NCBI GenBank assembly: GCA_017473775.1
Contig: JAFUJH010000079.1
Location: 1-57,058, forward strand
Origin: Ruminococcus sp.
GTDB taxonomy: Bacteria > Bacillota > Clostridia > Oscillospirales > Acutalibacteraceae
Length of the DNA stretch: 57,058 nucleotides
Direction of reading: 5' to 3'
Below are positions 6,515 to 45,020 of this stretch, piece by piece; position 1 is the stretch's first letter; every line of letters starts with the position of its first letter. Both the position numbers and the translations under genes were made by a program. Below the pieces are notes generated by a model. It searched no databases. It was not told the origin of the DNA and saw only the letters and a program-made list of their open reading frames with translations.

Positions 6515-7750
6515 ATGAAGATGAAAGAGGTATTGTCAAGGACAGGTTTAACTGACCGTGCCGTCAGACTATATATTGAAAACGGACTTGTTGAGCCTGA
6601 TTGCAATGAGTCACACAGCGGACGGAAAAGTCTTGAGTTTTCAGAGAAAAATGTGCAGGAACTTAATAATATTGCATTGCTCAGAAAAGCAGGCTTTTCC
6701 ATTGCGGATATAAAGCTTCTGATGCAAGGTGGAGAAGATGCCCGTCAGGTGATTGAGAAATATAAAAGTGAAACAGCAGAACTTATTGAGTGGAAAGAAA
6801 AGGTCCTGGAAGCCTTGGAGAGTCTGACTGAAAGCAGTGAGATTACACTCGAAACTGTTTGCCAAAGCCTTTCTGTTGCAGTTGCTGACAGAAAACTACC
6901 TGCAGAGGATAACAAACTCACAATACTGCAACGAATAGAGGTGTATTCTTTCAGGACGGTTTCAATAATCGGATTAGTTCTTTCGTTGGCTGTATGTGTT
7001 TTTCTTATTCTTTTTTATAAAGGGAATTTCAGACACACGACTTTTGTGCCTCTTTCTGAACAAGCTTCTGTCTTGATTGCTTTTTATATTCCTATAATTC
7101 TAAATTCAATAGTTTCTTTGGCGTTACTTGTTATTTATCTGAAGCCGAAGTTCGGAACAATTCAACATATAGTGCGTGTAGTAGTTGCGTTTTTACTGAC
7201 AGTAGTTTTAGTTTGCTCTGTGATAAAAACCCCTTTAGCAATGGCTATGGTGGCTTTTGTACCTCCCGTGTATTCTCAGACAAACTCCCCTGCTGATTAT
7301 TTGCAACTTGACAGTTATGTGGAAGAATACTCTGCTGTTGAAGAACTGTTCCCTGAGAAAATTCCTGATGAAGCGATAGAAAACGGAGTGAGAAGCCACC
7401 CTTGGGAGACTTATCCCAAAACAGTAAGGTATTATTATATGTATAGTCATTTTGTTGACCCTCAGTTTGATTTGTATGCAGAATGGCGATTGCCAAAAGA
7501 GGTATATGCAGAAACAAGAGATGAAATGTTTGCAAATCCGCCATGGGAGATTGCAGGAACTCGAGAAAAAGGGGAGTGGACTTGCTTGTATTTTGCGGAT
7601 GTGGAGGGTGAGGAACCATATACATTTACTTATTATTACCTCATTTTCGCTTATAACGATAAAACAGATACAGTGAGATATATTGCTTCATACTGTATGG
7701 ATACAGGGGATAGTTCACGCAATCCTTACTTTGTTTCTTTGAATTGGTAA
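6515..7750 (+). CDS. Membrane-anchored MerR-family regulator
   Basis: This 411-residue protein starts with a MerR winged-helix DNA-binding domain (residues 1-70: 'YIENGLVEPD', 'LLRKAGFSIADIKLLM') and a coiled coil (about 75-115). Unlike a normal MerR effector domain, it continues into three membrane segments (about 145-168, 185-212 and 222-250) and a 150-residue C-terminal domain that probably faces outside. It may therefore sense an extracellular or membrane signal. The ATG at 6515 is eight bases after AGGAGG; the ATG at 6509 is too close. The preceding promoter has the 19-base spacer of MerR targets. The truncated MATE gene downstream may once have been its target. Confidence 0.85.
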   Translation: MKMKEVLSRTGLTDRAVRLYIENGLVEPDCNESHSGRKSLEFSEKNVQELNNIALLRKAGFSIADIKLLMQGGEDARQVIEKYKSETAELIEWKEKVLEALESLTESSEITLETVCQSLSVAVADRKLPAEDNKLTILQRIEVYSFRTVSIIGLVLSLAVCVFLILFYKGNFRHTTFVPLSEQASVLIAFYIPIILNSIVSLALLVIYLKPKFGTIQHIVRVVVAFLLTVVLVCSVIKTPLAMAMVAFVPPVYSQTNSPADYLQLDSYVEEYSAVEELFPEKIPDEAIENGVRSHPWETYPKTVRYYYMYSHFVDPQFDLYAEWRLPKEVYAETRDEMFANPPWEIAGTREKGEWTCLYFADVEGEEPYTFTYYYLIFAYNDKTDTVRYIASYCMDTGDSSRNPYFVSLNW

Positions 7751-7762
7751 ACACAAAATCTA

Positions 7763-7795
7763 AGCCTGTGTATTTGTTTACGCAGGCTGTTTTTT
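7763..7795 (+). terminator. Terminator, copy 2 of the duplicated terminator
   Basis: AGCCTG (7763-7768) pairs with CAGGCT (7783-7788), followed by TTTTTT. The sequence is identical over about 31 bases to the terminator at 6394-6425. Confidence 0.8.
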
Positions 7796-7921
7796 GAGTT
7801 GACAAAATATGTAGTTTTATGTACTCTAAATAGGTGAGAAAACAGAATTGTCTATCTTTGTTTTTTTGATTTGCTACATAATTATATTATCGCAAAACTG
7901 TTTTTGCCCTGAGAGGATTAT

Positions 7922-8119
7922 ATGACTAAGAAAATAAACGGAAAAATTGAATGGAGTATGATTGCCGCTATATTTACCCTTGCGTGGCCAACTATGCTTG
8001 AGCAGCTTATGCAGACGGCTGTTCAGTACATAGACACCGCAATGGTGGGTACATTGGGTACACACGCAACTGCCGCAGTTGGCTCTACTACCATGGTGAA
8101 TCGGCTCAGGGGCAGATGA
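7922..8119 (+). pseudogene. Truncated MATE-family efflux transporter
   Basis: The first roughly 58 codons encode a clear MATE N-terminus (AWPTMLEQLMQTAV, then DTAMVGTLG and TTMVN), after which the frame leaves the family sequence and stops at residue 66. Full MATE transporters have about 450 residues and twelve membrane segments, so about 85 percent is missing. The ribosome binding site GAGAGGA and the start are intact. A good terminator at 8154-8189 still follows, which suggests an internal deletion. The truncation lies just before the promoter of the four-gene operon at 8340. Confidence 0.8.
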
Positions 8120-8153
8120 AATCCTCTTGAGAAAAAATAATAAATTTACTTAT

Positions 8154-8189
8154 AAAGCAGTCATTACAGCAATGTTCTGACTGCTTTTT
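8154..8189 (+). terminator. Terminator downstream of the MATE remnant
   Basis: AAAGCAGTCA (8154-8163) pairs with TGACTGCTTT (8178-8187), followed by Ts. The stretch 8120-8339 holds this, the operon promoter and no gene. Confidence 0.75.
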
Positions 8190-8237
8190 GTTCTATATTA
8201 GAAAATAGCAAAAAGTTAAATTTTTTGACATTTCATA

Positions 8238-8266
8238 TTGACAAGCGGTTATATATTTTGTAAAAT
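8238..8266 (+). promoter_or_regulatory. Promoter of the CARF-nuclease/AAA/RyR operon
   Basis: TTGACA (8238-8243), a 17-base spacer and TAAAAT (8261-8266) with a TG extension form a near-consensus promoter. A second TTGACA lies at 8225-8230 and a second TATAAT at 8306-8311. Confidence 0.65.
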
Positions 8267-8339
8267 ATTAACAGTATTACTCAAAATATGACGAAGCTTG
8301 TATGGTATAATTCATAATCAGAAAATGAGGGGTGTAGTA

Positions 8340-9584
8340 ATGACGATTATTGAGTTCTATGATAAAGCTGATATTAACAACATTGTGGGTGCGTTGGTGT
8401 ACAAGCCCCACAAGGTTATCCTCATAGGGGATTGTAACAGGGATATGAATCAGAGTGTTGAGGATTACAGGAGATTGCTTAGCAAAAAAGGCATAAACAC
8501 TGTAATCGACCCGGTAAAGGTAGAGACTCAGAACCTCCATCGGATATACGACGCCCTTGTAAAGATTGTAGAGGAAAACGAGGATTGCGTTTTTGACCTT
8601 GCAGGGGGAGACGACTTGTTCCTTGTGGCTGTGGGTATGATTGCACAGCAGTACAAAGACAAGGTACAGCTTCACAGAATTGACGCAAGGAAGAATACCG
8701 TCACTGACTGCGATGCAGGTCTGAACACTACTGAGGAAATCCCCCTGAGTCTTTCTGTGGAGGAGCTTGTCTCTGTGTACGGAGGCAGGGTTATTTATAC
8801 AGAGGATTTGGATGACGGTACATATAAATGGGATTTTAACGAGGGATTTATCAGGGATATCGAGAAAATGTGGGATATCTTTAAGGATGACCCCAGAGGC
8901 TGGAATACCCAGATGAATGCCCTTGATGGTATGAGCGGCAAGTATTATGGGGACGAAGACCTTTATATCGAAGCGAATAAGGAGGAGGCAAAGGCATACC
9001 TCAAAACCAAGGATGTGAAGTTTGTATTCTTCAACAGAATGTTCCGCAGGCTTGCATCCGCAGGAATTATCCGAGGCTATAACCCGGGCTTTGACTCGGG
9101 TGTGTTCTCCTTCAGCTTTAAGAACGAGCAGGTAAAACGATGCCTCACTAAGGCAGGTCAGCTTCTGGAGCTGTACGCAACTTATGTTGCAAGGGAGCTG
9201 TTCAGAGACGGAGAGGCGTTTTTTGACGATGTAGCAACAGGCGTGTACATCGACTGGGACGGCAAGCTGTCTTCGGAGGATGAGGCTGATGTCCACAACG
9301 AAATAGATATTATTCTGATGAAGGGACTTGTGCCTGTGTTCATCTCCTGCAAGAGCGGAGTTGTCAAGGTGGATGAGCTGTACAAGCTATCCTCGGTTGC
9401 AGACCGATTCGGCGGCCCTTATGTGAAAAAGGTCCTGCTCAGTGCAAGCCTTGATGACGACAAGCGTAACGGCCCTGTTGTCAGAGCAAGAGCGAAGCAG
9501 ATGGGCATCAGAATCATCGACGATGTAGATAATATGTCGGTTTCTTATTTCCGCAAACAGCTTTGTATGCTTTGGGATAATTGA
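8340..9584 (+). CDS. Card1/Can2-like CARF-nuclease (DUF1887 family)
   Basis: This 414-residue protein matches the two-domain plan of DUF1887 proteins such as the Vibrio VC1899 structure and the CRISPR effectors Card1 and Can2. The N-terminal Rossmann-like domain has the strand KVILIGD and the CARF-type loop 'DLAGGDD' (AGGDD at residues 88-92), where CARF domains bind cyclic oligoadenylates. The C-terminal PD-(D/E)XK-type nuclease shows 'NEIDIILMKG' (E321, D323) and 'FISCKSG' (K338). A winged-helix-like region may lie between. The start follows GAGGGG; upstream ATG/GTG codons lack a site. It is the first gene of an operon, 31 bases before the AAA protein, with no CRISPR locus in view. Confidence 0.88.
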   Translation: MTIIEFYDKADINNIVGALVYKPHKVILIGDCNRDMNQSVEDYRRLLSKKGINTVIDPVKVETQNLHRIYDALVKIVEENEDCVFDLAGGDDLFLVAVGMIAQQYKDKVQLHRIDARKNTVTDCDAGLNTTEEIPLSLSVEELVSVYGGRVIYTEDLDDGTYKWDFNEGFIRDIEKMWDIFKDDPRGWNTQMNALDGMSGKYYGDEDLYIEANKEEAKAYLKTKDVKFVFFNRMFRRLASAGIIRGYNPGFDSGVFSFSFKNEQVKRCLTKAGQLLELYATYVARELFRDGEAFFDDVATGVYIDWDGKLSSEDEADVHNEIDIILMKGLVPVFISCKSGVVKVDELYKLSSVADRFGGPYVKKVLLSASLDDDKRNGPVVRARAKQMGIRIIDDVDNMSVSYFRKQLCMLWDN

Positions 9585-9615
9585 TATCAGATTAAAATGA
9601 AATGAGGTAATTACT

Positions 9616-12600
9616 ATGAATGATATTAAATTCAGCTCTTTTATGAAATATGTAATAGAAAAAGCAACCGAGATTGCCAAGACCCGAGGAGAGACAGTGG
9701 CAACGGTTGAGGATATCTTTACCGTTGTGGTTATCAACACTATCCTTGTAATGAATGGTGATATCAGTCAGGACAAATTCTCCAAGGAGGAGATGGAGGC
9801 ACTGGGCAGTTTCGTAAGCTCCTTGACAGGCAATGTTACCGAGCGTATCAGCAGTGTGGCAGAGGCTGTATCTGTCAAGAAGGCAGACCCCTTCAACTCA
9901 ACAATCCAGTACGAATCACTGATTGCAAGGGCAGATAAATCCGCAAGAAAAAACGGCAGTGAGGTTATTACAGCAGATGTGGTTATCAATTGCATCCTTG
10001 AGCGACCCACAGACCTTATCGATAATTTTATGTCAGGCAAGGATATCCCTGCAGCAACCCAGACAGCTCCTGCAAAGCAGACTCCCTTTGCCGATGTTTC
10101 AAAGAAAACCTCAGCCTCACAGGATGCAGTGTATATCTTTGATAACAAGCCCAAGTCCGACACCGAGACCTGCGCTGAGCCTGCCTCAGTGCCTGAGAAA
10201 AAGCAGGAGAGCAGTGAGCCGCCAAAGACCAGACTCGCAAAGGAGATGGAGATACTCAAGCAGGTTCGCGGAAAGCTTCTTGAGAGAGTGTTCGGACAGG
10301 ACCATGTGGTGAACAGCGTTATTCAGGGCCTATTCAAGGCGGCTGTTGCTGATATGACCGACAAGGAGCGTCGCCGTCCCCGTGCAACTTTCCTCTTTGC
10401 AGGCCCTCCCGGAGTAGGTAAGACCTTTATTGCAGAACAGCTCAGAGAGCACTTAGGCTACGAGGAGAGACAGTACAAGCGTTTTGATATGAGTGATTAC
10501 TCTGACGAGGATTCTCTGGTTGGACTTTGCGGCTCGGACGATGTGTACAAGGGTGCACAGCAGGGTCAGCTTACACAGTTTGTGGCTGAGAATCCCAAGT
10601 GTATCATTCTTTTTGACGAGATTGAGAAGGCTCACCTGAAGGTTATCCATCAGTTCCTGCAGATTCTGGATGCAGGCAGATGCCTTGACCAGAAAACAAG
10701 AAGATATGTATCCTTCAAGGATGCAATCGTTATATTCACAACCAACGCAGGCAGACCTTTGTATGAAAATTCAGAGCAGACCACATATGCCGATGTATCA
10801 CCCAAGGTTATCCTCAATGCTCTGAAGAATGATATCGACCCCAACACAAAGGAGCCCTTCTTCCCGGCGGCTATCTGCTCACGATTTGCCACAGGTAATG
10901 TGGTTATGTTCAACCATATGCAGGCTAATGACCTTATCAGACTTGCAAGAAAGAACATTGAGGACCATGTGCAGGCAGTGCAGGAGAGCTTCGGCTATAA
11001 AATTACAATTGACGACAAGCTCTATCCCTCGGTACTGTATGCAGAGGGCGGCCTTGCCGATGCCCGTTCTGTCAGTGCCCGTGCAAAAAGCTTCTTTGAT
11101 AATGAGCTTTACGAGCTGTTAAGACTTGTGGAGGCAGAGGACTCAGCCTTTGGTATTGCAGATGTTGAGAGCATCAGCATTGAGGTTGAGCTTCCTTCGG
11201 ATAAATCCGACATCAGGGCTATGTATAACCCCGAGTTCGGCAGGGACCTGCTTGTTTATGCAGACGAGCAGACCGGTGCCGTAATCAAATCAGCGGCAGA
11301 AGCCTTCAGGGTGCATATTGCTACTGATTATGAGGAAGCAGTAAGAATTATTAAGGAAAAGGACATCAGAGCTGTACTGTGTGACTTCTGCTGCGGCAGC
11401 TCAGAATCCTGTGCTGATTACCTTAATATCGAGGATTTAGAGACTGACGGCAGAGCACTGTTCAGATATGTTACCAAGGAGACAGATGTTCCTGTTTATG
11501 TTATAGCAATGCCCTCAAACCCCTTGAGCGAGGAGGAGATTGTATCCCTCAACAAGGAAGGTGCAAGAGGTATCATAGACAATCTGTCAGATACAAAGGC
11601 ACTTAGTGCGCAGCTTGATGATGTAGGCAATCAGATTCATTATCAGGCTACACTCAAGGAGCTTGCACGAGCCAATAAGATGCTCAGATTCTCCACAGGT
11701 CAGACTATATCACAGGACGGAAAGTCTGCTGTTATAAGACTCTTTGACCTGACTATGGATGTGGCTGTTGACGCAGAGGACCAGGACAGCATCCTCTCCA
11801 AAATGTCAAAGCCTGATATTAAGTTCAAGGATGTACGCGGTGCAGAGGACGCAAAGAAGGAGCTTCAGTTCTTTATCGACTATCTGAAGAATCCCAGAAA
11901 ATACGCAGGCTCAGGAGTAAGCGCACCCAAGGGTATCCTCCTGTACGGCCCTCCCGGAACAGGTAAGACCCTCCTTGCAAAGGCTACAGCAGGTGAGTCG
12001 GATGTTACCTTTATCTCTCAGGAGGGTAACGATTTCCTCAAAGGCGGTATGGGTGAAGGCAAAAAGGCTGTTCATGACTTGTTCTCTCTTGCTCGCAAGT
12101 ATGCTCCTTCTATTATCTTTATCGATGAGATTGACGCCATTGCAAAGGAGCGTACAGGCTACTCCAGCCCTGAGCGGGAAGCTACCCTGACAGCCTTCCT
12201 GACAGAGATGGACGGCTTTAAAACCGATACCTCCAAGCCTGTGTTTGTGCTTGCGGCTACAAACTTTGAGGTTGAGGAGGGTACAGCCAAGAGCCTTGAC
12301 TCTGCACTTATGAGAAGATTCGACAGGCGTATCTACATCGGACTTCCCTCCAAGGAAGGCCGCGAGGAGCACCTGAGAGAAAAAATAAAGAAGAATCCCA
12401 TTTTTGATATCAGTGATGATACAGTGAAGAATATCGCTGTCCGTTCTATGGGTCAGAGCCTTGCAAACCTTGACTCTGTACTTGAACTTGCACTTCGTAC
12501 AGCTCTCAGAGACGGAAAGCGTAAGGTCACAGACCAGATTCTGGATGATGCCTTTGAGACCTTCAACAGCGGCGATGTAAGAAAACGCAGTGAGGAAAAA

Positions 12601-13131
12601 ATACTCCGCACTGCAAGACATGAGGCAGGTCACACCCTTCTTTACTGGCTTGCAGGCGATGTGCCTTCATATGTAACCGTTGTGTCCCGCGGTGATTACG
12701 GCGGATATATGATGCCCGGCGATAAGGCGGAGGAGGGCCTGAGCACCAAGAAGGATATGCTCAACCGAATCCGTACAAGCCTTGCAGGCCGTGCCGCCGA
12801 GATTGTATACTACGGCGAGGAGGACGGAATCTCCACAGGTCCCTCTGCTGACCTGAGAAGTGCCACCAATGTTGCAATGCATATGATTTGCTCATGGGGT
12901 ATGAATGACGACTTCGGACTGTCGGTAATAGATGTAAGCCATGTGGATATGTCATCCTTAGGCGATGATGTGAGAAAGGTCGTAAACGAAATCCTCACAA
13001 CAGAGTTCAGATATGTAAAGGATGTCATCACCAACAATAAGGCGAAGATTGACGCTCTGGTAGATGCCCTCATAGAGCGCAGCCAGCTCACAGGCACCGA
13101 AATAGTAGAAATCTTCGAGTCTGTAAACTAA
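9616..13131 (+). CDS. ClpB-like AAA+ / receiver-like / FtsH-like protease fusion
   Basis: This 1171-residue soluble protein joins parts normally found in separate machines. Residues 1-150 look like a Clp N-domain and are followed by a flexible linker to about 205. A ClpB D2-type AAA+ module has Walker A GPPGVGKT (263-270) and Walker B IILFDE (330-335). Residues about 545-680 resemble a response-regulator receiver fold with an acidic residue at D590. A second AAA+ of FtsH type has GPPGTGKT (778-785), FIDEID and the arginine finger region 'ALMRRFDRR'. An M41 zinc protease follows with HEAGH (1002-1006) and the third ligand candidate D1079, 77 residues on as in FtsH. Unlike FtsH it has no membrane segment. 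It probably unfolds and degrades proteins in response to a signal. Confidence 0.88.
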   Translation: MNDIKFSSFMKYVIEKATEIAKTRGETVATVEDIFTVVVINTILVMNGDISQDKFSKEEMEALGSFVSSLTGNVTERISSVAEAVSVKKADPFNSTIQYESLIARADKSARKNGSEVITADVVINCILERPTDLIDNFMSGKDIPAATQTAPAKQTPFADVSKKTSASQDAVYIFDNKPKSDTETCAEPASVPEKKQESSEPPKTRLAKEMEILKQVRGKLLERVFGQDHVVNSVIQGLFKAAVADMTDKERRRPRATFLFAGPPGVGKTFIAEQLREHLGYEERQYKRFDMSDYSDEDSLVGLCGSDDVYKGAQQGQLTQFVAENPKCIILFDEIEKAHLKVIHQFLQILDAGRCLDQKTRRYVSFKDAIVIFTTNAGRPLYENSEQTTYADVSPKVILNALKNDIDPNTKEPFFPAAICSRFATGNVVMFNHMQANDLIRLARKNIEDHVQAVQESFGYKITIDDKLYPSVLYAEGGLADARSVSARAKSFFDNELYELLRLVEAEDSAFGIADVESISIEVELPSDKSDIRAMYNPEFGRDLLVYADEQTGAVIKSAAEAFRVHIATDYEEAVRIIKEKDIRAVLCDFCCGSSESCADYLNIEDLETDGRALFRYVTKETDVPVYVIAMPSNPLSEEEIVSLNKEGARGIIDNLSDTKALSAQLDDVGNQIHYQATLKELARANKMLRFSTGQTISQDGKSAVIRLFDLTMDVAVDAEDQDSILSKMSKPDIKFKDVRGAEDAKKELQFFIDYLKNPRKYAGSGVSAPKGILLYGPPGTGKTLLAKATAGESDVTFISQEGNDFLKGGMGEGKKAVHDLFSLARKYAPSIIFIDEIDAIAKERTGYSSPEREATLTAFLTEMDGFKTDTSKPVFVLAATNFEVEEGTAKSLDSALMRRFDRRIYIGLPSKEGREEHLREKIKKNPIFDISDDTVKNIAVRSMGQSLANLDSVLELALRTALRDGKRKVTDQILDDAFETFNSGDVRKRSEEKILRTARHEAGHTLLYWLAGDVPSYVTVVSRGDYGGYMMPGDKAEEGLSTKKDMLNRIRTSLAGRAAEIVYYGEEDGISTGPSADLRSATNVAMHMICSWGMNDDFGLSVIDVSHVDMSSLGDDVRKVVNEILTTEFRYVKDVITNNKAKIDALVDALIERSQLTGTEIVEIFESVN

Positions 13132-13153
13132 ACATAGCTTAAAGGAGAACTTT

Positions 13154-15520
13154 ATGAACATAGCAGTTTTTTTACTGGTGTTGTTATCATGGATTGCTTT
13201 TGCAGCAGGTATAGGTACGATTGTATACCTGTTCAAAAAGCAAAAAGGTATGTCTGTCAGTAAAAAGATTCTGATTTTTTCGGGTACACTTTTTCTCTCG
13301 ATATTCCTACTCAGATTGGCTACCTCAGTTTATATTGATGTATCACTGACAAGTAATGCACTGTCAGATGATTTTATCTCTATGCTTGGAGAGAACGCAA
13401 TCAACATAGGTTTCCTTGACCATTGTGTCCGCAGTATGATTCAGTCTTTGCGTACATTTGCGTTTGATGAGGATTTTTATTTGTTTGCAATAACAGCAGA
13501 TAAAATGAAGGACACAGTGTTCTTCTCCTGCAACGCACTTTCCGTGATATACAGAGTCCACGCGGCGGCAGTTACATTGATTGCTCCTGTGACAACCGGT
13601 GCTATTGTTATCGGTTTCCTTACAAAATTGTTCTCCAAGCTTATACTGAAGCTTATGCCTGCCAATCGGGATTTCTATGTGTTCTCTGAGCTTAACAACA
13701 GCTCACTTGCACTTGCACAGAGCATTGTGGATGAACACAAAGCTTCAGAGGAAATGCGCAAGCCTGTTATAGTTTTCACTGATGTGTATATTGACACTGA
13801 GAACGAGGTTGTATCAGAGCGTGTAGCAGCTGCAAAAAATCTGGGTGCAATCTGTCTGACAGATGATATCCTCCATATTAAAATTCGCGGTTGTATCCGT
13901 ACAAAGCGTGGTACAAAGGTGAGCTACCTTCTTATGGATGAAATAGAAGAAAATAATCTGCATACACTATCTATGCTTGCTGAGCACAACAAGGGTGAGC
14001 GGTTGCTTTACTCCTATGTGTATTTGTTTGGCAACGGAGCTTCTGTCAGCAATCTTGTCAAATGTGTGGATTGGAAATTACGCAATGAGTATAAGATTGA
14101 CAAGGATAAGCTCCCTGTAATCAGAGTTATCGAGGGTTACAAAAATCTCGTCTATAATCTTCTTTGTGAGGTTCCCCTGTATGAGCCCCTTGTGGGTCGG
14201 GTTCCTGTTGAGGGTAAAAAGGAAAAAGACCTGAATGTTACCATTATCGGCAGTGGTATTATCGGTATGCAGATGTTCCTTGCAACCTATTGGATGGGAC
14301 AGATGCTGGATGTTAACCTGCATATCAATATAGTTTCTCAGGAGAGTGAGGAGTCCTTCAGAGACAGAGTCAACCTGATAAATTCAGATGTTCTCAAAAC
14401 AGAGGCATCACAGGCAGATACAGAGCTTCTCAGGATTTACTCCAATTCTCACGAAACAGCAAAGCCCTACTTCACTATGAGGTATACAGTTGCCGATGTT
14501 ATGACAGGCAATTTGTACGATGCACTGAACAAAAAGCACACAAGCGGACGATTTGCTCTTTGCCAGTCAGATTACTTTGTTGTAGCTATCGGCTCTGATG
14601 AGAATAATATTCTGGTAGCTAACAAAATCAAAGAGATAATCGGCAGGGATTTGTTATGCGACAGAACTAACAGACGGGCGATAATCAACTATGTTGTCTA
14701 TGACAAGGATGTTTGTTCAACGCTCAACTGTGTTCAGGATAATCCCAATATTTATATGAATGCTTTTGGTAATTTCAGGGATGTATATAACTATAATTAT
14801 GTATTTATGTCCAGAACCGATAAGGTTGCAGTGAAGCTTAACGAGACTCATGCCCACAAGTCCTCCCGTTATAATACATACGGTAAGGAAGAGATGAACG
14901 CATATGTCTCTGATGAATACAAATACTGGTCATCTATAGCCAGAGGAATTCATATTCCGTACAAATACTTTTCTGCAGGAGCAATCACTGCTTCAGCGGT
15001 GTTTGATAAGGCTCTGCCTGCAACAGAGGATCAGGCTGTGATTCAGGATTATCTGAGGCGGGTTTGTCTGGAGGATGGCTTTGAAGCTGATAACCTGCCC
15101 ACTGTAGAGGAGCGGGAAAAACTCTACTACAGACTTACATGGCTTGAGCACAGACGATGGGTCGCTTTTATCAGGACCTGCGGTTTTTCTGCTCCTGACA
15201 AGGAACAGCTTGATGCATATGCATTTGTAGACGGTAACGGTACCAAGGAGCTTTCCTTGAAGTTCCATCCTTGTCTTGTGGAGTGTGACGAGTTCAAACC
15301 AAAGCTTCCTGCCGCACAGCCAAGAACAGGTGATATTGCAAAAGGTGTGGGCACTGACCTCAAATGCATTAAAGTTGATAATTACGATTGCCTTGATGCT
15401 GTGTCTTTATATCTGCACAAGCTTGCACAGGACCGTGTTGAAGGTATCGGTTGTGTTTATAAGGCATACGATTGTCCTTATGAGTACAATCCAAAGAATA
15501 AAACAATAACAATTCAATAA
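13154..15520 (+). CDS. Membrane protein with Rossmann domains and RyR-like C-terminus
   Basis: This 788-residue protein begins with two membrane segments (residues 1-27, 35-60) and a third at about 138-165. The cytoplasmic remainder has a TrkA/RCK-like Rossmann domain starting near residue 172 ('FYVFSELN'), a second one with the dinucleotide loop GSGIIG (366-371), and a C-terminal region with LEHRRW (664-669), the motif that marks prokaryotic RyR-related domains. RCK-type domains gate ion channels by binding nucleotides. A membrane effector controlled by a nucleotide ligand is therefore plausible but unproven, since no channel filter is visible. It starts after AAAGGAGAA, 22 bases after the AAA protease. 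Confidence 0.75.
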   Translation: MNIAVFLLVLLSWIAFAAGIGTIVYLFKKQKGMSVSKKILIFSGTLFLSIFLLRLATSVYIDVSLTSNALSDDFISMLGENAINIGFLDHCVRSMIQSLRTFAFDEDFYLFAITADKMKDTVFFSCNALSVIYRVHAAAVTLIAPVTTGAIVIGFLTKLFSKLILKLMPANRDFYVFSELNNSSLALAQSIVDEHKASEEMRKPVIVFTDVYIDTENEVVSERVAAAKNLGAICLTDDILHIKIRGCIRTKRGTKVSYLLMDEIEENNLHTLSMLAEHNKGERLLYSYVYLFGNGASVSNLVKCVDWKLRNEYKIDKDKLPVIRVIEGYKNLVYNLLCEVPLYEPLVGRVPVEGKKEKDLNVTIIGSGIIGMQMFLATYWMGQMLDVNLHINIVSQESEESFRDRVNLINSDVLKTEASQADTELLRIYSNSHETAKPYFTMRYTVADVMTGNLYDALNKKHTSGRFALCQSDYFVVAIGSDENNILVANKIKEIIGRDLLCDRTNRRAIINYVVYDKDVCSTLNCVQDNPNIYMNAFGNFRDVYNYNYVFMSRTDKVAVKLNETHAHKSSRYNTYGKEEMNAYVSDEYKYWSSIARGIHIPYKYFSAGAITASAVFDKALPATEDQAVIQDYLRRVCLEDGFEADNLPTVEEREKLYYRLTWLEHRRWVAFIRTCGFSAPDKEQLDAYAFVDGNGTKELSLKFHPCLVECDEFKPKLPAAQPRTGDIAKGVGTDLKCIKVDNYDCLDAVSLYLHKLAQDRVEGIGCVYKAYDCPYEYNPKNKTITIQ

Positions 15521-15568
15521 TCTGACATTGATGTAATATACTTTATCACAGATAAAGGAGGAAGATAT

Positions 15569-15853
15569 ATGTATACACCAAAACCCGTTGACACAAGTGA
15601 TGTGGAGCTGTCTGCAGATTTGTTGGAGCTTACAGAGAAAATTGCAGAGAATGTGCACGAGGTCTGGGCTGCCGGCAGAGTAGCCGAGGGCTGGACCTAC
15701 GGCGAGGTGCGTGACGATGAGAAGAAGACTACACCCTGCCTTGTGCCTTACTGCGAGCTTCCCGAATCAGAGAAGGACTACGACCGCAACACAGCACTTG
15801 AGTCTATCCGTCTTATAGTAACTCTCGGTTATGAGATAAAGAAGAAAGATTGA
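15569..15853 (+). CDS. Stand-alone RyR domain protein
   Basis: The 94 residues consist almost entirely of one ryanodine-receptor (RyR) repeat: 'PxPVDTSDVEL', 'ENVHEVWAAGR', 'GWTYGEVRDDEKK', 'PCLVPYCELPESEKDYDRNT' and a final 'LGYEI'. RyR domains occur in animal calcium channels and scattered in bacteria, where they have been proposed to bind nucleotide-derived ligands. Here the domain is free and could act as a ligand buffer, sensor or partner of the membrane protein upstream, which ends in a related domain. A strong AAAGGAGGAAG ribosome binding site precedes the ATG. It is the last gene of the operon. Confidence 0.9.
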   Translation: MYTPKPVDTSDVELSADLLELTEKIAENVHEVWAAGRVAEGWTYGEVRDDEKKTTPCLVPYCELPESEKDYDRNTALESIRLIVTLGYEIKKKD

Positions 15854-15868
15854 TGACAATCACACAGG

Positions 15869-15898
15869 GCAGGCTGTCTTTTTGCGGCCTGCTCTTTT
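15869..15898 (+). terminator. Terminator of the CARF/AAA/RyR operon
   Basis: GCAGGC (15869-15874) pairs with GCCTGC (15887-15892), followed by TCTTTTAT. It marks the right end of the operon. Confidence 0.7.
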
Positions 15899-15920
15899 AT
15901 TTGCAGGATTTGTGTCCAAA

Positions 15921-15951
15921 ACTTGCATTTTTGCAAGTGTGGTGGTATAAT
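15921..15951 (+). promoter_or_regulatory. ppa promoter with overlapping dyad
   Basis: TTGCAT (15923-15928), a 17-base spacer and TATAAT (15946-15951) form the promoter. A perfect dyad ACTTGCA-TTTT-TGCAAGT (15921-15938) covers the -35 element and looks like an operator. Confidence 0.55.
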
Positions 15952-15982
15952 GTAAATATTATACAGAGAAGGAGAAGGGTAT

Positions 15983-16513
15983 ATGTCTAATATATGGCAC
16001 GATATTGCTGCAAAGAGAATCAAACCTGAGGATTTTGTTTGTGTAATTGAAATCTCCAAGGGCAGTAAAACTAAGTATGAACTTGACAAGGAAACAGGCT
16101 GTATAATGCTGGACAGAATTCTGTATACTTCAACTCAGTATCCTGCAAACTACGGCTTTATTCCCAAGACCTATGGTGAGGACGAGGACCCCCTTGATGT
16201 ACTGCTTCTTTGCTCGGAGCCGTTGGCACCCCTCACACTGGTTCGTGCATATCCCATTGGTGTTATCACAATGATTGACAACGACAGATGTGATGATAAA
16301 ATTATCGCTATTCCCTTTGGCGACCCAAGTTACAATCAGTATAAGGATATTACCGACCTGCCTGTTCACATCTTTGAGGAGATGAAGCATTTCTTCAAGG
16401 TTTACAAGAATCTTGAGAACAAGAACACCGCTGTCAACGAAGTAAGCGGCAGAGAAAAGGCATTGGAGATTATCCGCAAAGCAAGAGCGGATTACAAGGA
16501 AATCTTCGGTTGA
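15983..16513 (+). CDS. ppa: Inorganic pyrophosphatase, family I
   Basis: This 176-residue cytoplasmic enzyme hydrolyses pyrophosphate to two phosphates and so pulls biosynthetic reactions forward. The family I signature is clear: 'SKxKYELDKETG', 'YPANYGFIPKT' and the metal-binding 'DEDPLDVL', with the usual length of about 175 residues. The ribosome binding site GGAGAAGG precedes the ATG at 15983. It is transcribed alone from a promoter whose -35 box is covered by a dyad, so it may be regulated. A bidirectional hairpin separates it from the convergent gene. Confidence 0.97.
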   Translation: MSNIWHDIAAKRIKPEDFVCVIEISKGSKTKYELDKETGCIMLDRILYTSTQYPANYGFIPKTYGEDEDPLDVLLLCSEPLAPLTLVRAYPIGVITMIDNDRCDDKIIAIPFGDPSYNQYKDITDLPVHIFEEMKHFFKVYKNLENKNTAVNEVSGREKALEIIRKARADYKEIFG

Positions 16514-17386: not shown

Positions 17387-17470
17387 GTGAATATAATGAG
17401 ATGATTTGTGGCTTGTTAAAAGCTGTGGTACTGCTTTTGATGAGCTGTGATATACGAAAGGGGAAAGGGT

Positions 17471-18481
17471 ATGAGAATATTAAGCATAGAGTCCTCCTGC
17501 GACGAAACCGCGGCGGCGGTTGTTGAGGACGGAAGGCGGGTTCTGTCCTCGGTTGTAGCTTCTCAGGTAGAGGAGCACAGGCTGTATGGCGGCGTTGTGC
17601 CTGAGATTGCATCCCGTCGTCACGCAGAGTCTATATCCTCAGTAGTAAGGGAGGCACTCTTGCAGGCTGACCTGACACTTGCTGATATTGATGCTCTGTC
17701 TGTTACCTTTGCACCGGGACTTATCGGCGCATTGCTTGTGGGTGTGAACTTTGCAAAGGGACTGTCCCTTGCAACAGGCAAGCCCCTCATCCCTGTGCAT
17801 CACCTTCGTTCCCATATTGCGGCAAACTACATAAGCCATCAGGAGTTGAAGCCGCCTTTTCTGTGCCTTGTGGTGTCAGGCGGTCACAGTCACATTGTCA
17901 TGGTGGAGGATTACACCAAAATGCGTGTCATAGGTGCTACCCGTGATGATGCGGCAGGCGAGGCATTTGACAAAGCAGCACGCACAATGGGTATGCCTTA
18001 CCCTGGCGGAATCGAGCTTGATAAGGTAGCAGAGCTTGGCGATGACAAGGCGTACACTCTGCCTCATCCTACAGTTGCAGGCTCTCCCTATGACTTCAGC
18101 TTCTCAGGACTTAAAACTGCAGTTATCAACCTTCTTCATAATGCTGAGCAGAAGGGGGAGGAAATATGCAAGGAGGATTTGTGTGCTTCCTTCAGACGGG
18201 CTGTAGTGGATTGCCTGACAACTAACCTGTTCAAGGCGGCAGAGGATTTGGGGGTTAAAACCATAGTTGCCGCAGGCGGTGTTTCTGCTAACAGACTCCT
18301 TCGGCGTGAGCTGGAGCGTCTCTGTGCTGAGAAGGGCTATGAGCTTTATGTACCTGAGCTTTCTCTGTGCGGTGATAACGCGGCAATGGTAGGCTCTCAG
18401 GGCTATTATGAATTCTTGAGCGGCAACATTGCTCAGACCGACCTGAACGCGGTTGCAACCCTGCCCATTGATTACAAATAA
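17471..18481 (+). CDS. tsaD: tRNA threonylcarbamoyladenosine synthesis protein TsaD
   Basis: This 336-residue ASKHA-fold protein transfers the threonylcarbamoyl group to A37 of ANN-decoding tRNAs, with TsaB and TsaE, which are not in this window. Diagnostic parts are the opening 'LSIESSCDET', 'GVVPEIASRRH', the metal-binding 'HHLRSH', 'LVVSGGHS', 'DDAAGEAFDK' and 'AAGGVSAN'. The ATG at 17471 follows GGGAAAGGG; the earlier in-frame ATG at 17447 has no site. It is transcribed alone. rimI, often its neighbour in Clostridia, lies 10 kb downstream. Confidence 0.97.
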   Translation: MRILSIESSCDETAAAVVEDGRRVLSSVVASQVEEHRLYGGVVPEIASRRHAESISSVVREALLQADLTLADIDALSVTFAPGLIGALLVGVNFAKGLSLATGKPLIPVHHLRSHIAANYISHQELKPPFLCLVVSGGHSHIVMVEDYTKMRVIGATRDDAAGEAFDKAARTMGMPYPGGIELDKVAELGDDKAYTLPHPTVAGSPYDFSFSGLKTAVINLLHNAEQKGEEICKEDLCASFRRAVVDCLTTNLFKAAEDLGVKTIVAAGGVSANRLLRRELERLCAEKGYELYVPELSLCGDNAAMVGSQGYYEFLSGNIAQTDLNAVATLPIDYK

Positions 18482-18545
18482 GACAAATTTGTGAAAAATA
18501 ATAAAAATGTGTTAAAAGTTTAACAAATATATAACAAAAAATATA

Positions 18546-18574
18546 TTGATATACTTTTATCTTTATGGTACAAT
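18546..18574 (+). promoter_or_regulatory. pckG promoter
   Basis: TTGATA (18546-18551), a 17-base spacer and TACAAT (18569-18574) in an AT-rich stretch; the ATG follows at 18626 after AAAGGAG. Confidence 0.6.
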
Positions 18575-18625
18575 ATTTATGGTTTTAAGCCAAATCAAGT
18601 TATCAACCGAAAGGAGTTTAACAAT

Positions 18626-20392
18626 ATGACAAACAACAAATCAGTTCTTAAATGGCTTGACGAGATGCAGGCTCTCCTTACACCTGACAAGGTAGTATGG
18701 ATTGATGGTAGCCGTGAGCAGGTTGAGGCACTCCGTGCTGAGGCTTGCGAGACAGGCGAGATGATCAAGCTTAATCAGGAGAAGCTCCCCGGCTGTTACC
18801 TCCACCGTACAGCTGTTAACGATGTAGCTCGTGTTGAGGACAGAACTTTCATCTGCCCCAGAAACGAGGAGGACGCAGGTCCTACAAACAACTGGATGGA
18901 TCCTGAGCGTGCTTATGAGATGCTCTTTGATATTGCTCGTGGCAGCTACAAGGGCAGAACAATGTACATCATTCCTTATTCCATGGGTCCCATTGGCTCA
19001 CCTCTCTCTCAGATTGGTATCGAGGTAACTGACTCCATCTATGTTGTTCTTAACATGGACATTATGACTCGTACAGGTAAGGCTGTACTTGATACACTGG
19101 GTGACAGTGAGGACTGGATCAAGGGTCTCCACTCACGCTGTGATATTGACGAGGAGAAGAGATACATCTGTCACTTCCCCGAGGATAACTACATTATCTC
19201 CGTTAACTCCGGTTACGGCGGCAATGTTCTTCTTGGTAAGAAGTGCTTTGCACTGCGTATCGCTTCCTACCTTGGCAAGCAGAACGAGTGGATGGCAGAG
19301 CATATGCTCATCCTTGGTATCGAAGATCCCGATGGCAATGTAACATATGTTTCCGCTGCATTCCCCTCCGCTTGCGGTAAGACCAACCTGGCTATGCTCA
19401 TTCCTCCCGAGGGCTACAGAGCAAAGGGCTACAAGGTATGGACAGTAGGCGACGATATCGCTTGGATGCGTAAGGGCCCCGATGGCAGACTTTATGCTAT
19501 CAACCCTGAGAACGGCTTCTTCGGCGTTGCTCCCGGTACAAATGTTAAGTCCAACCCCAACGCTCTCGCATCTACTCAGCAGGGCACAATCTTCACTAAT
19601 GTAGTTCACAACCTTGATGACAATACAGTATGGTGGGAAGGTCTGGATAAGAATCCTCCCGCAAATGCAGTTGACTGGATTGGCGAGCCTTGGAACGGTC
19701 AGACTTCTGACAAGAAGGGTGCACATCCCAACAGCCGTTTCACAGCTCCTGCAAAGAACTGCCCCTGCATCAGCTCAGAGTTTGACTCTACACAGGGCGT
19801 TCCGATTTCTGCTATCATCTTCGGCGGCAGACGCGCACAGACAACTCCCCTTGTATATCAGTCCAGAGACTGGAACAACGGTGTATTCGTAGGCTCTATC
19901 ATGGCTTCTGAGACAACTGCTGCTGCAACAGGTGCAGTTGGTGTTGTTCGCCGTGATCCTATGGCTATGCTGCCCTTCTGCGGCTACCACATGGGTGACT
20001 ACTTCAAGCATTGGATTGATATGGGCGAGGTTCTCGGCGAGAAGGCTCCCAAGATCTTCAATGTAAACTGGTTCCGTCTTGACGACGAGGGCAACTTCCT
20101 CTGGCCCGGATTTGGCGACAACTTCCGTGTTCTGGAGTGGATTGTTAAGCGTTGCAACGGCGAGGCTGATGCAACTGAGACAGCTATCGGTTTCGTTCCT
20201 GCAGCAGAGGATATCAACCTTGAAGGCCTCGATATGGATATCGAAGTTCTCAAGAGCATCCTCGAGGTTGACAACGAGAAGTGGCTCGGCGAGACAGCAG
20301 GCATCGAGGAGTTCTATCAGAAGTTTGGCGACAGACTTCCCGAGGAGCTCAGAGCTCAGCTTGAATCACTCAAGGAGAGACTCAGCAAGTAA
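18626..20392 (+). CDS. pckG: Phosphoenolpyruvate carboxykinase (GTP)
   Basis: This 588-residue cytoplasmic enzyme interconverts oxaloacetate and phosphoenolpyruvate with GTP/GDP. In anaerobic gut bacteria it often runs in the CO2-fixing direction toward succinate or supplies oxaloacetate. The GTP-type signatures are present: the kinase loop 'FPSACGKTN' with its reactive cysteine, 'VGDDIAWM', 'ENGFFGVAPGTN' and 'FGGRRAQTTPLV'. Length matches the family (about 590-620). The codon use is strongly biased to C-ending codons, which suggests high expression. It is monocistronic with its own promoter and terminator. Confidence 0.97.
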   Translation: MTNNKSVLKWLDEMQALLTPDKVVWIDGSREQVEALRAEACETGEMIKLNQEKLPGCYLHRTAVNDVARVEDRTFICPRNEEDAGPTNNWMDPERAYEMLFDIARGSYKGRTMYIIPYSMGPIGSPLSQIGIEVTDSIYVVLNMDIMTRTGKAVLDTLGDSEDWIKGLHSRCDIDEEKRYICHFPEDNYIISVNSGYGGNVLLGKKCFALRIASYLGKQNEWMAEHMLILGIEDPDGNVTYVSAAFPSACGKTNLAMLIPPEGYRAKGYKVWTVGDDIAWMRKGPDGRLYAINPENGFFGVAPGTNVKSNPNALASTQQGTIFTNVVHNLDDNTVWWEGLDKNPPANAVDWIGEPWNGQTSDKKGAHPNSRFTAPAKNCPCISSEFDSTQGVPISAIIFGGRRAQTTPLVYQSRDWNNGVFVGSIMASETTAAATGAVGVVRRDPMAMLPFCGYHMGDYFKHWIDMGEVLGEKAPKIFNVNWFRLDDEGNFLWPGFGDNFRVLEWIVKRCNGEADATETAIGFVPAAEDINLEGLDMDIEVLKSILEVDNEKWLGETAGIEEFYQKFGDRLPEELRAQLESLKERLSK

Positions 20393-44749: not shown

Positions 44750-45020
44750 AAAATAAAAACGCCCTGCGTGCTTATAACACACGCAGGGACGAATAATATC
44801 CGTGGTACCACCCTGATTTTTGCATCAAAAAGAAGCAAACACTCCTGTGACCTTTAACGGTGTCTGCCGTTGAAGCCTACTGAGAATACAAGTTCAGCCC
44901 CACCGCTCAGAAGTGAACTTCGCTGTACCTGCTGTGTCGGTGCTTTCAGCCTGCGGCAACCGCTCTCTTTGCACAGCATTGATAGAGCTACTTTCTTCGT
45001 CATAGCGTTTAATAAATATC
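44750..45020 (-). promoter_or_regulatory. T-box leader of pheST (Phe-responsive)
   Basis: On the minus strand the T-box AGGGTGGTACCACGG (44814-44800) is unmistakable. It precedes a terminator (stem CCCTGCGTG/CACGCAGGG at 44762-44788, T-run to 44750). Upstream lies a Stem I arrangement (TGCTGTG paired with CACAGCA). A UUC codon (44917-44915) fits a phenylalanine specifier. Uncharged tRNA-Phe would stabilise the antiterminator and raise pheST expression. Confidence 0.92.

Follow-up and report, generated by a model that had tools for sequence, protein, structure and literature searches.

Results

Organization of the operon

The subject of this analysis is a four-gene operon found in a 57,058-nucleotide stretch of DNA from Ruminococcus sp., a gut bacterium (Acutalibacteraceae; assembly GCA_017473775.1, contig JAFUJH010000079.1, positions 1 to 57,058 of the forward strand). 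The whole stretch is referred to as the window. All four genes are on the + strand. The first, CARFnuc (8340-9584), encodes a 414-amino-acid protein with a CARF domain and a Card1/Can2-type PD-(D/E)XK nuclease. It is followed by AAA-FtsH (9616-13131; 1171 amino acids), with two AAA+ modules and an M41 zinc protease, by MemRyR (13154-15520; 788 amino acids), with hydrophobic helices, tandem RCK-like domains and a RyR-like end, and by a free RyR domain (15569-15853; 94 amino acids). The intergenic gaps are 31, 22 and 48 bases, and the ribosome sites are purine-rich. Upstream lies a promoter-like site, TTGACA-17-TAAAAT (8238-8266, +), identified by consensus match only (11 of 12 matches). It scored highest among the 21 such sites in 7700-16100, where 14.5 were expected from shuffles. 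Downstream is an intrinsic terminator-like hairpin of 12 pairs with a T-rich tail (15866-15895, +), the top of 10 in the same region. The coordinates, gaps and top-scoring signals confirmed that the operon, which the initial annotation had described as one promoter, four closely spaced genes with ribosome sites and one terminator, is real. The ratio of nonsynonymous to synonymous substitution rates (dN/dS) of the operon proteins was 0.06-0.16 where estimable, with synonymous sites near saturation, and could not be estimated for MemRyR. Diversifying selection was rejected on these values.

The CARF nuclease and the AAA+ protease

CARFnuc matched Pfam Card1_endonuc (E 3.7e-8; 33.5 bits against a cut-off of 26.4) and, over residues 2-405, the PADLOC model CARF4--CARF_PDDEXK (E 7.8e-36), as expected for the DUF1887 protein with CARF and PD-(D/E)XK parts that had been annotated. 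It has an E-x-D motif at 321-323, and by motif E321 and D323 are the counterparts of the Can2 active-site pair E276/D278. The lysine lies within SCK, where the position of the serine is usually held by glutamate in such nucleases. Both NE[ILV]D and SCK were present in every one of the 39 rows of the alignment, among them a relative on a Cas10 contig (L175); two rows come from a single assembly. The serine thus gives no sign of local decay, and a decayed nuclease was rejected. A sequence search for a solved structural relative found none at E 0.01. An association with type III CRISPR, typical of such proteins though not universal, was not seen: no cas gene adjoins CARFnuc, and Cas10 was not enriched in genomes with this family (4 of 37).

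CARF nucleases were also seen in other arrangements. At L176 (3845-5400, +), a gap of 11 bases separates a CARF nuclease gene from a free RyR gene downstream, and a MemRyR match was absent from the fetched 13 kb. At L039 (7015-11253, -), a natural fusion of 1412 amino acids joins a protein kinase, an RCK part with EHRRW, a CARF domain and a Card1-type nuclease; no separate RyR profile match was found in it.

AAA-FtsH had been annotated as a fusion of Clp-N, ClpB-type AAA, receiver-like and FtsH-M41 parts. Pfam supported two AAA+ domains, a ClpA/ClpB-like module at about 254-409 and an FtsH-like module at 774-910, together with Peptidase_M41. The other two parts fared less well. Clp-N gave no match in the window protein and 16 bits, below the cut-off, in the single relative tried (L091), and the stretch between the AAA+ modules matched Response_reg below threshold (14.8 bits; E 0.032). 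The M41 part carries HEAGH at 1002 (HEXXH), and H1002, E1003, H1006, D1079 and the second Walker A motif, GTGKT, were invariant in 20 aligned sequences. Against the FtsH equivalog model the protein scored 342 bits, below the cut-off of 600. By simple hydropathy, a single hydrophobic peak (1.92) stands at residue 28, well N-terminal of the FtsH module, and no anchor pair of the FtsH type is evident.

MemRyR and the free RyR domain

MemRyR had no Pfam match, channel families included. Its monomer model had a predicted local distance difference test (pLDDT) value of 85.9 and a predicted template modelling (pTM) score of 0.83. The model, hydropathy and paralogues gave a layout of three hydrophobic helices, tandem RCK-like Rossmann domains at about 172-560 and a RyR-like C-terminus at about 650-788. 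RCK gating rings head the list of structures from VIA-align, the closest being DMI1/CASTOR, TrkA, GsuK and Slo1. Model, fold match and hydropathy thus agree on tandem RCK-like domains after membrane helices, and the two Rossmann-like domains of the initial annotation are best read as a predicted RCK gating-ring unit. A helix at 87-102 and a conserved TFSMDEDY-like segment precede the last membrane helix in the monomer model. Taken together, the models indicate a ligand-gated channel-like architecture.

The RyR-like end of MemRyR, also annotated before, lacks a Pfam match, yet it is backed by a paralogue bridge, a domain model and 22 of 22 Foldseek matches to RyR structures, each of them weak, and we assign it to the RyR fold. 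In the 38 aligned C-termini, out of 58 sequences, the pocket residues H, W, H and D were invariant. Over all 58 sequences, W669 and D745 never varied, and H666 and H705 were kept in at least 90%. The H, W and H were placed by a weak profile alignment and the D by motif only. At L128 (9844-11535, +), a frame of 563 amino acids with a RyR domain at its end adjoins the MemRyR gene.

The annotation of the fourth gene as a free RyR domain was borne out by PF02026 (E 2.5e-36; 124.3 bits against a cut-off of 27.4). BLASTP aligned the protein with phage RyDEP (E 2e-13), in which H75, W78, H100 and D117 correspond to H30, W33, T55 and D72 of the free RyR. The H, W and D were present in 29 of 29 rows (two from one assembly), and the T in 25 of 29. 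Most of the cyclic ADP-ribose (cADPR) pocket therefore appears, by residue conservation, to be kept in the RyR parts of the window. Burroughs, in 2015, is said to have treated RyR in prokaryotic conflict systems. According to a 2026 preprint, RyR domains of phages bind or cleave the TIR-made immune signals 2'/3'cADPR and block Thoeris, with RyDEP and its tested homologues acting as a glycosidase or as nanomolar sponges (PMC13232231).

Neighbourhoods of related loci

We tallied 94 loci with MemRyR relatives, made up of 77 named loci from a genome-contig scan, 16 unnamed loci and the window, using profiles built from the same loci. The unnamed loci L032, L033 and L035-L037 were left out as duplicates of named ones, and two pairs, L075/L076 and L118/L126, each come from one assembly. 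In the same gene run as MemRyR there was a free RyR in 27 loci, AAA-FtsH in 24, CARFnuc in 18 and a TIR gene in 10 (the TIR frame of L108 is only about 63 codons). A TIR gene lay at most three genes from MemRyR in 15 of 94. The whole four-gene set was found in seven of these loci (the window, L075, L076, L083, L085, L111 and L122) and also at L216. Since L075 and L076 belong to one assembly, the set occurs in seven genomes, including that of the window. The four-gene set is no chance neighbourhood and is a recurrent module.

The TIR neighbours are varied. A TIR-LRR protein is encoded at L036 (the same contig as L080), TIR proteins with sub-threshold beta-propeller-type matches are beside MemRyR at L117 and L041, and at L127 the order is CARFnuc, MemRyR and TIR. 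At six other loci (L040, L045, L047, L051, L077 and L123), MemRyR stands beside recurrent large proteins of about 1200, 1700-1900 or 740-770 amino acids. Those tested were mostly without a family match, and one protein of about 1200 amino acids was tubulin-like. At L102 (5990-9883, +), a ClpP-type protease gene (Pfam) and a gene that groups with a TraG-type coupling protein are upstream of MemRyR and RyR.

Co-occurrence across genomes

Co-occurrence was counted in 295 genomes of the window's order, with MemRyR-family members called at E 1e-5 and close MemRyR defined as E below 1e-60. MemRyR was present in 21 genomes, CARFnuc in 37, the AAA-FtsH linker in 10, Cas10 in 17, TIR_2 in 74 and N6_Mtase in 122. 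Seven of the MemRyR genomes had close members and 14 had distant ones only, mostly short forms. The family is thus patchy, and among the sampled genomes of the same family the window's own was alone in carrying it. All 21 MemRyR genomes had a TIR gene, compared to 53 of 274 others (p 2e-14), and this held for both the close (7/7; p 5e-5) and the distant-only genomes (14/14; p 1e-9). Genomes with CARFnuc and no MemRyR had TIR in 6 of 24 cases, compared to 47 of 250 with neither. The other operon genes also went with MemRyR. No genome with the AAA-FtsH linker lacked it (10 of 10; p 3e-13), and the linker was in 5 of 7 close-MemRyR genomes (p 3e-7). CARFnuc was found in 13 of 21 MemRyR genomes compared to 24 of 274 others (p 2e-8), and in 5 of 7 close ones (p 4e-4). 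Far from never co-occurring, which the initial annotation had named as grounds for giving up its reading, the homologues co-occurred strongly in both the 295 genomes and the 94 loci.

Neither control marker was enriched with MemRyR. N6_Mtase, a marker of restriction-modification, was present in 8 of 21 genomes compared to 114 of 274 others; it was the only marker tried as a control for defence-rich genomes, which were rejected as the cause of the TIR link. Cas10 was present in 1 of 21 compared to 16 of 274, some genomes being incomplete. For 50 of the 77 named loci, the genomes had Cas10 in 2 of 14 cases with CARFnuc in the MemRyR run vs 9 of 36 without it. Dependence on CRISPR as a general rule was rejected on these counts. 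Carriage by phages or plasmids was also rejected: a scan of viral contigs gave 69 pattern matches and zero confirmed relatives of MemRyR, and a plasmid search gave no match at E 1e-5.

Site of the operon and CRISPR genes of the host

At the upstream edge of the operon is a remnant of a MATE-type transporter gene (7922-8119, +; 65 codons) that matches Pfam MatE at profile positions 1-38 of 161 (E 4.4e-6). Two loci of the same genus encode full-size MatE proteins at this position, and the remnant is a marker of the site that lies outside the system. In one of them (L216), all four genes lie between the MatE gene and a pyrophosphatase gene; in the other (L217), the MatE gene directly precedes the pyrophosphatase gene and the operon is absent. 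The four operon proteins of L216 are 62, 65, 54 and 82% identical to those of the window, and six flanking matches are 97, 96, 90, 84, 71 and 55% identical, the last being cut by the fetched end. Because these ranges overlap, the operon is not clearly evolving faster than its surroundings, and a faster rate was unsupported. Elsewhere in the window, the sole Rfam match at the gathering threshold was a T-box leader (44782-45012, -).

The operon had been described as being without CRISPR. This is correct for the window and not for the genome, which carries a type III-B CRISPR system elsewhere. It lies on host contig C20, at about 3.9-14.9 kb within locus L174 (C20:18500-37500). A Cas10 of 510 amino acids that keeps SGGDD is surrounded there by Cmr3, two proteins of the RAMP family and Cas6, and an array of more than 12 repeats is beside it. 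In a genome of the same family (G272, contig C9; L175), a 42%-identical CARF nuclease is on the contig of that genome's Cas10 match and comes after a gene run that includes one RAMP match. In the 295-genome search it scored highest of all CARF nucleases beyond the window's own genome; the L216 copy is closer (62%).

Discussion

We read the operon as a modular nucleotide-signalled effector system that is most likely anti-phage or abortive and signalled by TIR-made cADPR, with the CARF nuclease as a second arm; our confidence in this composite reading is evenly balanced. The anatomy of the operon, the co-occurrence and modular shuffling of its genes, the site with and without it, and the conserved active-site and pocket residues were all computed directly. 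The TIR link is both statistical and positional, and the distribution across genomes suggests that the operon answers alarm molecules derived from nicotinamide adenine dinucleotide (NAD). It is probably an antiviral or suicide system. The initial annotation had likewise proposed an operon switched on by a nucleotide-type signal. That proposal stands insofar as the operon is recurrent, modular and patchy, combines sensor and effector domains and has TIR genes beside some relatives; its antiviral function is something we infer. The source of the ligand had been left open, and there is now a specific candidate: TIR-made cADPR, which the RyR parts are likely to bind in view of the phage RyR work (PMC13232231) and the TIR association.

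Under this reading, a TIR protein encoded elsewhere in the genome or, in some relatives, next to or within the operon would sense trouble and convert NAD+ to cADPR. The RyR domain of MemRyR could bind this signal, and the RCK ring would then open or close a membrane pore and so alter ion flux or potential, a step suggested by the architecture and the conserved pocket. The free RyR may bind or hydrolyse the same signal as phage RyDEP does, and its homology and kept H/D pair point to a role in setting a threshold or shut-off. As a second arm, the CARF nuclease would cut nucleic acid, perhaps on a separate cyclic oligoadenylate (cOA) supplied by the host type III-B system. In the weakest step, the apparently soluble double-AAA+ M41 protease might unfold and degrade a partner, for which the channel ring and the nuclease are possible candidates, and so release or end the response. 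A more specific version is that MemRyR is a cADPR-gated ion channel driven by TIR signalling, a bacterial functional counterpart of the ryanodine receptor in which an RCK ring would couple the RyR sensor to a cation pore; that the operon joins cADPR sensing through RyR with cOA sensing through CARF in a single response of channel, nuclease and protease; and that the free RyR is the off-switch. We offer this version tentatively and think it has the smaller chance of being right.

Several observations count against our interpretation. No TIR gene adjoins the operon in the window, and the genome's two TIR genes are on other contigs. The neighbouring genes at 15983-16513 and 17447-20392 read as housekeeping genes and form no defence island, a PADLOC search at E 1 gave neither MemRyR nor RyR a protein-model match, and the low dN/dS values speak for an absence of positive selection. 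For MemRyR itself, the RyR fold match is weak by E-value, no known channel selectivity filter was seen in the putative pore, and the membrane part fits GsuK loosely (root-mean-square deviation 7.8). The free RyR has T55 at the site of the phosphate-binding H100 of RyDEP. Of eight tested RyDEP homologues, six bound signals and none was seen cleaving, and all are phage proteins (PMC13232231). Also, in 45 of 94 MemRyR loci the run was without any of the four partners tallied (many loci are truncated at contig ends), and the co-occurrence tests ignore the tree, with MemRyR spread over nine families.

Another possible explanation is that the operon is a detached accessory of type III CRISPR, in which the host Cmr complex, on recognising its target, would make cOA that activates the CARF nuclease, with the other three proteins as additional ancillary effectors. 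The cmr genes, SGGDD Cas10 and repeat array of the host, the nuclease at L175 and the activation of Can2 by cyclic tetra-adenylate (cA4; PMC7969007) would fit this, but it leaves RyR and the TIR association unexplained and Cas10 was not enriched in genomes with MemRyR or CARFnuc. We consider it unlikely.

A role in ion or osmotic homeostasis seems somewhat less probable again. Here MemRyR would belong to a channel or transporter under RCK control and would sense ADP-ribose or other adenine nucleotides, the protease would serve membrane quality and the nuclease would be a passenger. RCK rings mostly serve potassium channels and transporters, the closest folds are of this kind, and the genes adjoining the operon look like housekeeping; the patchy distribution and the company of TIR, CARF nuclease and kinase proteins, however, do not suit a housekeeping function. 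The least probable account is toxin-antitoxin-like buffering, in which RyR chiefly keeps cADPR low and restrains the TIR proteins of its own cell until the buffer is overcome and the other genes act: the sponge or glycosidase activity of RyDEP and its homologues, the kept H/D pair and the restriction of MemRyR to TIR genomes in our sample favour it, but a sponge has no need of an RCK ring and membrane helices, and the free RyR is missing from the run in 67 of 94 MemRyR loci.

The kind of system proposed here, a nucleotide-signalled effector system, is known. The effector architecture and the gene set are without a description that we could find; in agreement with the initial annotation, which knew of no named system with this set, none was described in the literature titles or abstracts searched. 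MemRyR, with its RyR-like end, RCK-type domains and membrane helices, offers a small system for testing gating by a TIR signal. The findings also point to a place for RyR domains on the host side, and not solely the phage side, of immunity based on NAD, and they draw attention to CARF nucleases of the Card1 type, most of whose genomes in our sample lacked a Cas10 match.

Thoeris pairs a TIR protein with a cADPR-activated effector, and its effectors are modular, as in the window operon. The TIR association suggests a similar NAD-derived cyclic signal here. The window operon differs in lacking a TIR gene, which 10 of 94 related loci have in the run, and in using a channel-like RCK/RyR protein, a CARF nuclease and an AAA+ protease as its putative effectors. 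RyDEP, an anti-Thoeris protein of phages, shares PF02026 and the H/W/D pocket with the free RyR, which in contrast is host-encoded, sits in an effector operon and carries T instead of H100. The window operon has, in addition, a RyR-like domain at the C-terminus of a membrane RCK protein. The RyDEP preprint has reopened the question of whether cADPR acts on animal calcium channels through their RyR Repeat12 region (PMC13232231). Compared to RCK-gated channels such as CASTOR/DMI1, GsuK, Slo1 and TrkH-TrkA, MemRyR has a terminal RyR, no known filter and no Pfam channel match. CARFnuc resembles the DUF1887 proteins Card1 and Can2 over its full length, with a CARF domain, a Card1-type nuclease and the E-x-D motif, whereas it is away from cas genes in a MemRyR operon and most genomes with such proteins have no Cas10 match. 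It is also like the orphan CARF proteins of the VC1899 type, which are DUF1887 proteins away from CRISPR (PMC7969007; PMC4012209), but unlike these it sits in a recurrent RyR/RCK/protease operon.

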